Of a DNA stretch of 30,655 bases, positions 13,087 to 14,979 are shown piece after piece (position 1 is the stretch's first letter; each line of letters opens with the position of its first letter). The notes under the pieces were generated by a model. It was given only the letters and a program-made list of their open reading frames with translations. It did not search any database and had not been told where the DNA came from. Location of the stretch: IMG/VR virus record IMGVR_UViG_3300037502_000603, positions 1-30,655 of that record; one strand, written 5' to 3'. Position numbers and translations under genes: made by a program. The stretch is from a virus.

Positions 13087-13395
13087 TTATTTAAGCCGCT
13101 GCAAGTAAAGGGCTTGCAGGGCGCATACGGTGTCGTCGGGGTCACGGGCTTCGTACCACTCGCCCCTTGGCTGGAATAGCCCCTGAAACCGTTTCTGGCC
13201 GTCTGACAGCCGCCCACCCTTAGCCTTAACCTCTATCCAGCAAATCCACGCCATACCGTCGTGCATTGGCTTTACGGCCAACAGGTCGGGGATGTCGTGT
13301 CCGGCAGAGGCGAAGTCGATGACCTCAAAGTTCGCTTTGCGGAGGGCTTCTACAATATCGGTGTGGTTGTTGTCTCGACGTTTGGCGTAGCGCAT
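13087..13395 (-). CDS. VRR-NUC / PD-(D/E)XK nuclease-like protein
   Basis: A 102-residue protein with the motif set of small VRR-NUC nucleases: an N-terminal helix (HTDIVEALRKANFEVIDF), then GHDIPDLLA (D34 and D37), WIEVKAKGG with E55 and K57, and LSDGQKRF. The D-(x)n-ExK layout binds metal and cuts DNA, and stand-alone VRR-NUC domains can act on branched DNA such as Holliday junctions. It follows the 104-residue gene by seven bases in the Cro-methyltransferase operon. The substrate is inferred from the family only. Confidence 0.82.
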   Translation of the reverse strand: MRYAKRRDNNHTDIVEALRKANFEVIDFASAGHDIPDLLAVKPMHDGMAWICWIEVKAKGGRLSDGQKRFQGLFQPRGEWYEARDPDDTVCALQALYLQRLK

Positions 13396-13402
13396 GGGCT
13401 GA

Positions 13403-13717
13403 TTATGCCGGTTTGCACTTTGCCTTCAACTTGTTTACGCCATTCTCGCCCCACAGTTCCCGCACCATGCTGCGAACGTGCGGGTCGCCGTATGCCTCGG
13501 TCGCATCGTCCAGCGACCGCAGGATGTCACCCACGTAGTTCTTGAGCCAAGACGTGCGCTCGGCACGCTGCTGCCAATCGCCTACGCCGATCCGAGCAAG
13601 GTAAGCATCGGCTAACCGCAGTTTGCCGAAAGGCGTTGTGATGGCGTTCTCCCAATACCGCATGTTTGCTTGGGACGCCCACGAGATGTCGCTGCTATTT
13701 GTGACTGGATTGTTCAT
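13403..13717 (-). CDS. Hypothetical protein downstream of the methyltransferase
   Basis: A 104-residue protein whose ATG (13715-13717) lies 23 bases inside the end of the methyltransferase gene. It contains a Trp-rich region (ISWASQANMRYWENAI; GVGDWQQRAERTSWLKNYV) and a helical C-terminus (DPHVRSMVRELWGENG, then NKLKAKCK). No recognised motif. Its tight coupling to the methyltransferase and the nuclease suggests a shared role in DNA modification or processing, but the sequence does not reveal it. Confidence 0.65.
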   Translation of the reverse strand: MNNPVTNSSDISWASQANMRYWENAITTPFGKLRLADAYLARIGVGDWQQRAERTSWLKNYVGDILRSLDDATEAYGDPHVRSMVRELWGENGVNKLKAKCKPA

Positions 13718-14534
13718 ATATCCATCGTCCTATTAGTTCTGGTATCTGCGGTACTACCGCGTTTCCGAGTGCTTTAAGTCTGTCCAACCGATTGGGAACC
13801 CCATCAGCCACTCGACCCACCGCGGGTTCAATTTCCCACCATGTATTGCGTTGAGTGATTTGGATTGCTGAGTGTTGCCCTGAAGGCGATATTTGTGCGG
13901 ACTCGCATCCGGCGTCGGCCACATTCTGCGACCATAAACTTCTTGCGCCGCCACTTGACTCCATAGAGTCCAGCGTCCTTGTGGGTGCAATCGTTCTGCT
14001 TCCTTCAGTCCAGCGTCCAGACTGCAAGCGTTTGACGGATTCGCTGTGGGGGTAGGCCACAATCCAGATTCGGTCTCGACGGTGAGGGGCGCCAAGGGCT
14101 GAAGCGGGTATACAGTGCCATTCTGCGTCGTACCCGATCTCAAATAGGCTGCCGAGAACTTCGTCCAATCCTCGATGGCGAAGGGCCGCGACGTTCTCTG
14201 CAATGATCCAGGACGGCCTCGTTTCCGCGATGAGGCGGTGGTATTCCCACCAGAGTCCTGATCGCTCACCGGCAAGTCCTGCGCCTTTTCCGGCAACGCT
14301 GATGTCTTGGCACGGAAATCCGCCGCAGATAACGTCAAATCGGATTCCATCGTTAGCCAATCGAGTTGCTGATAAGTCACGTACATCCTCGTATATCGGC
14401 ACATCCGGCCAATGCTTATGAAGCACGGCTTGGCAAAACTTGTTGGGTTCGCAAAACGCTACTGTCTGCATACCAGCGCGTTCTAGCCCGAGGCTAAACC
14501 CGCCGATACCGCTGAACAGATCAAGCACCCTCAC
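13695..14534 (-). CDS. C5 cytosine DNA methyltransferase
   Basis: A 279-residue enzyme starting at GTG 14534, transferring methyl groups from SAM to cytosine. Motif I is FSGIGGFSLGLERAG (7-21), motif IV GGFPCQDIS (71-79, catalytic C75), motif VI AENVAAL (112-118), motif VIII APHRRDRIWIVA (149-160), and motifs IX-X near RLKALGNAVVPQ (about 252-263). The target-recognition region (about 165-235) is short. It follows the Cro-like gene with a 14-base overlap and likely protects phage DNA from host restriction, because no partner endonuclease is present. A second frame runs through most of this gene and is listed separately. Confidence 0.93.
   Translation of the reverse strand: MRVLDLFSGIGGFSLGLERAGMQTVAFCEPNKFCQAVLHKHWPDVPIYEDVRDLSATRLANDGIRFDVICGGFPCQDISVAGKGAGLAGERSGLWWEYHRLIAETRPSWIIAENVAALRHRGLDEVLGSLFEIGYDAEWHCIPASALGAPHRRDRIWIVAYPHSESVKRLQSGRWTEGSRTIAPTRTLDSMESSGGARSLWSQNVADAGCESAQISPSGQHSAIQITQRNTWWEIEPAVGRVADGVPNRLDRLKALGNAVVPQIPELIGRWIYEQSSHK
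13754..14404 (-). other. Long overlapping ORF in the +1 frame inside the methyltransferase gene
   Basis: A 216-codon ORF with no stop, wholly inside the methyltransferase gene and shifted by one base. ATG 14404 opens it; an internal ATG begins MESDLTLSAADFRAKTS. Its product contains ordered patterns (TESGLWPTPTANP; RRMWPTPDASP; NPRWVEWLMGFPIGWTDL) that I recall from ORFs annotated beside C5 methyltransferases in phages. These patterns map exactly to the other frame of conserved methyltransferase text: MWPTP pairs with NVADA, and the last motif pairs with VADGVPNRLDRL. It may be a coding frame or a conserved shadow. No clear ribosome site was identified. Confidence 0.35.
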
Positions 14535-14712
14535 GGATTTTCAGCACGCATTGGATTTGGTACAGACGCAACGCAGGAATCTTGTCTTCCTTAAACCAGC
14601 GCAGAACAGCCTGCCTGGTAACGCCCAACGCCCGAGCAATCTCGCTCTGGGAGCCATAAATCTTGAGTAGTTGTTTCGGTGTCATAGATTTCACGGTAAC
14701 AGTTGTTGACAT
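14521..14712 (-). CDS. Cro/YdaS-like HTH transcription regulator
   Basis: A 63-residue protein starting at ATG 14712 (the frame is open further upstream, but those residues lie beyond the promoter). The helix-turn-helix is SQSEIARALGVTRQAVLRWF (21-40), followed by KEDKIPALRLYQIQCVLKIR, close to Cro/YdaS-type repressors. Its start codon is inside the inverted repeat at 14705-14722, and it faces away from the early operon at 14767. This is the expected position for a repressor of the divergent early promoter. No partner CI-type repressor was found in the window. Confidence 0.85.
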   Translation of the reverse strand: MSTTVTVKSMTPKQLLKIYGSQSEIARALGVTRQAVLRWFKEDKIPALRLYQIQCVLKIREGA

Positions 14713-14733
14713 GATCGTCAACGGGAGTATACT
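14705..14733 (+). promoter_or_regulatory. Early promoter with operator-like inverted repeat
   Basis: TTGACA (14706-14711) and TATACT (14728-14733) are separated by 16 bases, an excellent sigma-70 promoter for the early operon. GTTGAC (14705-14710) and GTCAAC (14717-14722) form a perfect inverted repeat with a 6-base spacer that covers the -35 box and the Cro start codon, so it is the best operator candidate. The -10 region AGTATACT (14726-14733) is itself palindromic, giving TATACT on both strands. I found no good -35 for the leftward direction. Confidence 0.7.
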
Positions 14734-14739
14734 GCACTT

Positions 14740-14754
14740 CGGGGATTGGCCCCG
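14740..14754 (+). other. Leader hairpin upstream of the early operon
   Basis: CGGGG (14740-14744) and CCCCG (14750-14754) pair around ATTGG. The element lies between the predicted transcription start and the ribosome site GGAG (14757) of the first early gene, so it could stabilise the 5' end of the mRNA. Five pairs with no T tract are too few to call a terminator. Confidence 0.4.
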
Positions 14755-14766
14755 TTGGAGAAAGAC

Positions 14767-14979
14767 ATGGAAGACGATTACCGCATCTTGGCCGAGCAGG
14801 AACGCGACCGACTCATGGAGTTGCACTGCCGCGCCGAACACGCCGCCTTCAACGTCATTGAAGGCTTAAACGAACTTAACCGCATCGAAGCCGAAGGCGC
14901 TTTCAAACTGCACCAAGCGTTCGCTGAGTGCATCGCCGCTATTGACGCCGCATCCGCCAAACTGAGGAACCCGCAATGA
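14767..14979 (+). CDS. Small hypothetical early protein
   Basis: A 70-residue protein starting at ATG 14767, ten bases after GGAG. The open frame reaches TTG 14746, but that lies before the ribosome site. It is helical and acidic (EQERDRLMELHCRAEHAAFN; ELNRIEAEGAFKLHQAFAEC). It is the first gene behind the early promoter and overlaps the ERF start by four bases (ATGA, 14976-14979). Function unknown; early position and coupling suggest a link to recombination or takeover of the host. Confidence 0.7.
   Translation: MEDDYRILAEQERDRLMELHCRAEHAAFNVIEGLNELNRIEAEGAFKLHQAFAECIAAIDAASAKLRNPQ

Follow-up and report, generated by a model that had tools for sequence, protein, structure and literature searches.

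An overlapping second protein in a phage C5-cytosine methyltransferase gene, and its likely role as the recognition subunit of a split enzyme

Does a long open frame inside a C5-cytosine DNA methyltransferase gene encode a protein of its own, or is it a shadow that conserved methyltransferase codons cast on the frame beside them? Two conserved proteins rarely share a long stretch of one strand, and demonstrating that they do is difficult. The case considered here lies in a 30,655-base IMG/VR virus record (the window, meaning the whole stretch of DNA analysed), which carries tailed-phage genes for a portal, head closure, a major head protein match, an Erf-like annealing protein and a primase. 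A preliminary description, made from the letters alone, had pointed to a stop-free +1 frame of 216 codons inside the methyltransferase (alpha), and this frame, ORF2, is indeed present with an ATG start (Table 1). The ordered motifs described in its translation could likewise be found, as two WPTP units and WVEWLMGFPIGWTDL, and they face the methyltransferase elements NVADA and VADGVPNRLDRL. The methyltransferase is part of a small minus-strand cluster: an HTH regulator (phrog_409; 14521-14841, minus strand) shares 14 bases with its start, and the product of a downstream gene (13087-13395, minus strand), 102 aa long, weakly resembles Holliday junction resolvase/endonuclease families. Possibly, the cluster is a small regulated methyltransferase-nuclease unit.

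Table 1. Features of the overlapping gene pair, in window positions.
Feature	Position	Strand	Basis
Alpha: C5-cytosine methyltransferase with motifs I-VIII and X, GTG start, 279 codons	13695..14534	-	Pfam PF00145
ORF2 (product, beta): overlapping +1-frame protein, 216 aa from the upstream ATG; the true start may be internal	13754..14404	-	Stop depletion, dual-frame purifying selection, PHROG phrog_1008
Alpha large domain, motifs I-VIII, residues 1-165	14040..14534	-	AF2 pLDDT
Linker of alpha (residues 166-244), with predicted disorder and neutral evolution in alpha's frame, in place of the usual target-recognition domain and motif IX	13803..14039	-	pLDDT, dNN/dSN
Alpha motif X helices, KALGNAVVPQ, residues 249-277	13704..13790	-	Conserved in A6; AF2 helices; flankC alpha dNN/dSN 0.18
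GTG that may serve as an internal start of beta; SD-like ACGAGG six bases upstream	14378..14380	-	SD scan
Beta N-terminal part, LTLSAADF...SGL, residues 23-115, overlapping alpha motifs IV-VIII	14060..14338	-	Both frames constrained
Beta cassette 1, WPTPTANPSNACSLDAGLKEAERLHPQGRWTLWSQVAAQEVYGRR	13925..14059	-	Cassette family
Beta cassette 2, MWPTPDASPHKYRLQGNTQQSKSLNAIHGGK	13832..13924	-	Cassette family
Beta C-terminal motif-IX-like segment, LNPRWVEWLMGFPIGWTDL	13775..13831	-	Near-invariant in family; motif IX PSSM; ORF2 dNN/dNS

Stop codons were counted in a set of 80-81 homologues that had been fetched by the methyltransferase protein alone, with ORF2 playing no part in the choice, and expected numbers were obtained by shuffling each gene's own synonymous codons. 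Across window codons 101-220, ORF2's frame contained no stop in any homologue, compared to 242 expected; the frequent stops by which the preliminary description would have recognized a shadow did not appear. Stops exceeded expectation in the bins before codon 45 and after codon 263 (ratios 1.26-1.67), so the depletion has sharp edges, which match the ends of ORF2. The other sense frame, serving as a control, behaved about as expected (1142 stops observed versus 1062 expected overall), and 23 canonical C5 methyltransferases given the same treatment showed no depletion (154 versus 163). For the window gene taken alone, codons 51-258 held no frame-2 stops versus 8.7 expected, and only 0.8% of the codon-shuffled versions of the whole gene reached so few. 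Apparent ORF2 stops in four gammaproteobacterial loci (L423, L425, L428 and L431) turned out to lie upstream of the ORF2 start or past its end, leaving ORF2 intact. Two further loci, L433 and L436, were rejected as examples of an ORF2 with stops, both being other C5 methyltransferases without ORF2. L433 (1676 onward), where motif IX (RRMLPSEYEILQGFPEGWTEV) is unmistakable in the +1 frame and motif X lies in the main frame, may be an evolutionary intermediate.

Substitution rates gave a complementary view. The synonymous share of methyltransferase codon differences was 0.36 in the N flank and 0.33 in the C flank, versus 0.20 in the overlap (40 homologue pairs, 70-97% identity); between the window and L013, 12 of 145 differences were synonymous inside the overlap versus 15 of 47 in the N flank. 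Some pairs proved recombinant, with near-identical flanks and divergent cores, and 14 pairs were therefore picked by eye, recombinants left out, for a dual-frame count. In this simple count, which leaves multiple hits uncorrected, the overlap showed a dNN of 0.068, a dNS of 0.182, a dSN of 0.177 and a dSS of 0.588; taken as a whole, it is about equally constrained in both frames. The dNN/dNS of ORF2 was 0.38 in the overlap versus 1.28 in the flanks of the same genes. Purifying selection thus acts on both frames within the overlap, but not beyond it, and the dual-frame check proposed in the preliminary description comes out in favor of constraint in ORF2's frame. That the locus holds two overlapping protein-coding frames is near-certain.

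Constraint was not evenly distributed along the gene. Region-wise rates were taken from 17 pairs with a bootstrap over pairs, whose intervals are somewhat narrow because some sequences recur in several pairs. Over motifs IV-VIII (codons 72-162), alpha was the more constrained frame (0.22, ORF2 0.50). Over the linker/TRD region (codons 166-232), the dNN/dSN of alpha was 1.05 (0.90-1.21) and the corresponding ORF2 value 0.49; in the motif-IX region (codons 233-252), ORF2 had a dNN/dNS of 0.19 and alpha a ratio of 0.48. In the C flank, alpha's dNN/dSN was 0.18. The dominant frame hence shifts along the gene, being alpha's over motifs I-VIII and X and ORF2's between VIII and X.

When loci were retrieved with the ORF2 profile or with a DNA pattern for WVEWLMGFP, 159 of 160 overlapped a methyltransferase in the same relative frame, the remaining one having no ORF2 match, and no free-standing ORF2 without a methyltransferase was found among the 159. 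Such ORFs had been said to recur near phage C5 methyltransferases; they do recur, though inside the methyltransferases and not near them. At least 255 distinct beta sequences belong to the family, and they come from phages, prophages and the genomes of bacteria in several phyla. ORF2 matched phrog_1008 (E 3.1e-22), as well as phrog_26627 and phrog_31772, and two of these three matched families are labeled DNA methyltransferase; all three appear to be made up of frame-2 products whose overlap went unnoticed in annotation. It is rare for public records to show both frames; usually only one is annotated. The Paenibacillus phage Shelly record lists an internal gene, while in those of Virus Rctr197k and Microcystis phage Mwe-JY08 (L006, L009) the methyltransferase frame is left without annotation and the only genes listed are frame-2 products, which in Mwe-JY08 span just a part of that frame.

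The 255 distinct beta sequences carry between zero and six xPTP units, followed by an end, LNPxWVEWLMGFPxGWT, that is near-invariant in the family. Among 22 distinct copies of the GNYN cassette, found at varied gene positions, identity was 79% in ORF2's frame, compared to 37% and 34% in the two remaining frames; here, it is therefore alpha's NVADA that shadows ORF2's WPTP. Cassettes also swap: in two pairs of otherwise near-identical phages (L303/L322 and L229/L248), the stretch between WPTP and LNPxWVEWLMGFP is cleanly replaced, as would be expected for specificity cassettes. Four loci (L046, L076, L058 and L065) carry a WPTP-type cassette inside the catalytic domain, flanked by methyltransferase motifs III and IV and in the correct frame for ORF2. 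In a distant second C5 group (FGEQV type, 'C-specific methylase'; L442:435-1421, L444:1541-2536 and L445), the +1 frame is likewise open and contains WPTP units as well as LNPAHSRWLMGLP / LRPGHSRWLMGFP.

Zero stops against 242 expected, the sharp edges of the depletion and the undepleted canonical enzymes hence defeat the idea that ORF2 is a mere shadow, held open and apparently conserved by methyltransferase codons, and, with ORF2-frame constraint confined to the overlap, cassettes conserved in ORF2's frame and not alpha's, and ORF2 open in five loci with an interrupted alpha frame (L313, L316, L350, L200 and L221), we consider it scarcely credible, even if some shadow similarity is real, the ORF2 profile also matching the stop-filled +1 frame of the C5 methyltransferases L433 and L436. 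Of the two alternatives originally posed, selection on both frames holds over most of the overlap, and a pattern forced by the methyltransferase does not. Between motifs VIII and X the direction is even reversed, with a passive methyltransferase frame and conserved ORF2 cassettes.

What, then, might the second protein do? Alpha itself offers a lead. Its PF00145 match (E 3.9e-47) covers only model positions 1-182 of 324, and several further ORF2-bearing enzymes show the same partial C5 match beside full-length canonical enzymes in the same genomes. PDB sequence matches include M.HhaI over alpha residues 1-171. Motifs I-VIII are all present, including the PCQ catalytic loop and ENV. In the AF2 model, residues 1-165 have a pLDDT of about 68-98 in 10-residue blocks, mostly above 85, residues 176-244 fall below 50 except for residue 218 and are predicted to be disordered, and the C-terminal helices are folded, mostly at high confidence. 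The model aligned to M.HhaI over 209 residues (Z 25.5, 2.7 A), reaching M.HhaI residue 325 and thereby including the C-terminal helices; together with KALGNAVVPQ, which is conserved in A6, this identifies motif X in alpha. A motif-IX-like segment was not found in alpha by a PSSM of 12 canonical motifs (p = 0.91), and the end of the PF00145 match, the disorder over 176-244 and the neutral linker also speak against a small domain with TRD and motif IX in this chain. M.HhaI and M.HaeIII carry the variable region and motif IX in a small domain (PMC3404938). Based on the partial Pfam match, the AF2 model and the comparison with these two enzymes, alpha looks like a C5 large domain with motif X and without the conserved small domain.

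Beta, in turn, ends in a segment resembling canonical motif IX (R-x-L-T-P-R-E-x-x-R-L-M-G-F-P-D-x-F). The same PSSM picked LNPRWVEWLMGFPIGW as the best ORF2 segment (p = 0.012), a short match that is suggestive, not strong. Whole-family comparisons returned nothing significant, either by hhalign of beta against canonical C5 methyltransferases or with the beta profile against the PDB, and an AF2 model of beta alone was poor (mean pLDDT 55). Three loci are instructive at this point. In L313, L316 and L350, alpha ends after motif VIII, and ORF2 is open and runs in frame into a motif X tail (for example, RVATGIKERVNRLKCLGNAVVPQ), which a profile of canonical enzymes matched in L316 (E 7e-4); the WVEWLMGFP segment is retained in all three although alpha's coding sequence no longer reaches it. 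ORF2 is also open despite an interrupted alpha frame in L200 and L221. Two irregular loci were seen besides. The pair in the E. coli PCP07014 prophage (L443:3366-4127) has one stop per frame and is decayed, and in L228 an indel near motif VI swaps the frames, leaving the catalytic motif and LMGFP in one frame, which reflects either a sequencing error or a decayed gene.

With a probability of roughly 70%, we consider the locus a naturally split C5-cytosine DNA methyltransferase in which ORF2 encodes the likely recognition subunit, a function that we infer for beta. A single stretch of DNA, read in two frames, would give the two polypeptides of one enzyme. Alpha would be the catalytic large domain, comprising the AdoMet-binding and catalytic motifs I-VIII, a long disordered linker and the C-terminal motif X. 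Beta would have its own start within alpha, around alpha codons 44-66 in the window's group, and would carry one or more exchangeable WPTP cassettes ahead of the motif-IX-like end. Most likely, it binds alpha, standing in for the missing small domain, and sets which DNA sequence is methylated, and cassette exchange would alter that specificity.

Where beta begins appears to differ between groups, and a single conserved start codon was not found. In the window, an SD scan gave -5.9 kcal/mol for the GTG at 14380, with the same value in L013 and L014; the ATGs at 14404 and 14350 are further possibilities, and the GTG at 14380 and the ATG at 14404 are the best candidates. In the window's group, stops in ORF2's frame extend up to alpha codons 51-68, often immediately 5' of an ATG. 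In the NELALFAGAGGG group (16 loci), the ORF2 ATG follows four bases after alpha's start, usually downstream of a purine-rich ribosome-binding site, often of Shine-Dalgarno type, and the frame is stop-free for 240 codons versus roughly 58 stops expected; the stop before this ATG is forced by the M-N-E-L sequence, whereas the later absence of stops is not. Strong Shine-Dalgarno sites near the beta start occur in some loci of the window's group, such as L075/L077 (AAGGAGGATATCAATG) and L030/L042 (AAAGGAGAAGACATTG). The mean best SD energy was -4.8 versus -3.2 kcal/mol for shuffles, a modest excess, with several loci having no strong site.

Two other readings also accept ORF2 as coding. Phage genes beside methyltransferases often counter host defense, and beta could accordingly be a genuine overprinted protein that has nothing to do with target recognition and serves, for instance, in anti-restriction or regulation alongside the methyltransferase. 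In line with this, no relatives of its N-terminal part were detected beyond the family in Pfam, NCBIfam or the PDB, and ORF2 as a whole had no match in these resources (best PDB E 0.37). Several features, however, count against such a function: ORF2 comes with a methyltransferase at every one of the 159 loci, it has a motif-IX-like end that runs in frame into motif X in three of them, it is constrained exactly where alpha lacks a conserved small domain, and its cassettes are exchanged in a manner typical of specificity regions. We hold this reading to be unlikely.

Slightly less likely again is programmed ribosomal frameshifting from alpha into ORF2, so that motifs I-VIII, the cassettes and motif IX would all end up in a single fused polypeptide. 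In L313, L316 and L350, a shift by +1 once motif VIII has been read would restore the canonical order of I-VIII, cassettes, IX and X. In the window type, however, motif X lies in alpha's frame and a single shift would lose it, and several loci have a Shine-Dalgarno site and start codon at the predicted beta start. Moreover, ORF2's frame is open upstream as well: almost every homologue has it open from around codon 70, and the NELALFAGAGGG group from alpha's start onward. This long open stretch would be unneeded if ribosomes entered ORF2 by shifting frame.

The split-enzyme reading would have practical consequences. Should recognition indeed reside in beta, cloning just the annotated gene would, for many phage methyltransferases now taken to be complete one-gene enzymes, give a product with no activity or with the wrong specificity. 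More broadly, we see even odds for a large phage and prophage class of C5 enzymes in which the recognition domain is an exchangeable cassette array in the second frame of the catalytic gene, specificity evolves by swapping, and the catalytic subunit, reading this DNA passively, obtains a disordered linker from it. This would amount to a natural system that shuffles specificity cassettes in a frame separate from the catalytic one. The overlap itself is supported by independent tests and is widespread in phages and bacterial genomes; a literature search for it in phages, covering chiefly open-access papers, returned nothing.

Among known systems, multispecific phage C5 methyltransferases of the SPbeta, phi3T and rho11 type carry short exchangeable TRDs between motifs VIII and IX. 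The likeness lies in placement and exchangeability; there, the modules are in frame within one chain, whereas here the cassettes occupy a second frame. M.AquI, a two-polypeptide enzyme recognizing CYCGRG and, with M.EcoHK31I, one of two C5 enzymes with a known split, shares the natural split near motif VIII. Its beta holds part of the variable region and motifs IX and X (PMC3404938), a layout matched only by L313, L316 and L350, with their IX-like segment and motif X in beta. Unlike M.AquI, the window type keeps motif X in alpha, and its two genes overlap over most of beta instead of following one another.

The two-polypeptide enzyme M.EcoHK31I (YGGCCR) comes closest to the window type. Its small-subunit gene is reportedly nested within the large-subunit gene in another frame. 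As in the window type, its alpha contains motifs I-VIII and X and lacks IX, the smaller polypeptide carrying motif IX only (PMC3404938), where beta here has a predicted motif-IX-like segment. The published TRD prediction for M.EcoHK31I, in alpha and not beta (PMC3404938), counts against the split-enzyme model, in which the target-recognition part appears in beta. The likeness is drawn from the published motif layout of M.EcoHK31I, to which the present family adds WPTP cassette arrays, a phage and prophage setting and a broad occurrence. If the split-enzyme model is true, M.EcoHK31I is no oddity.
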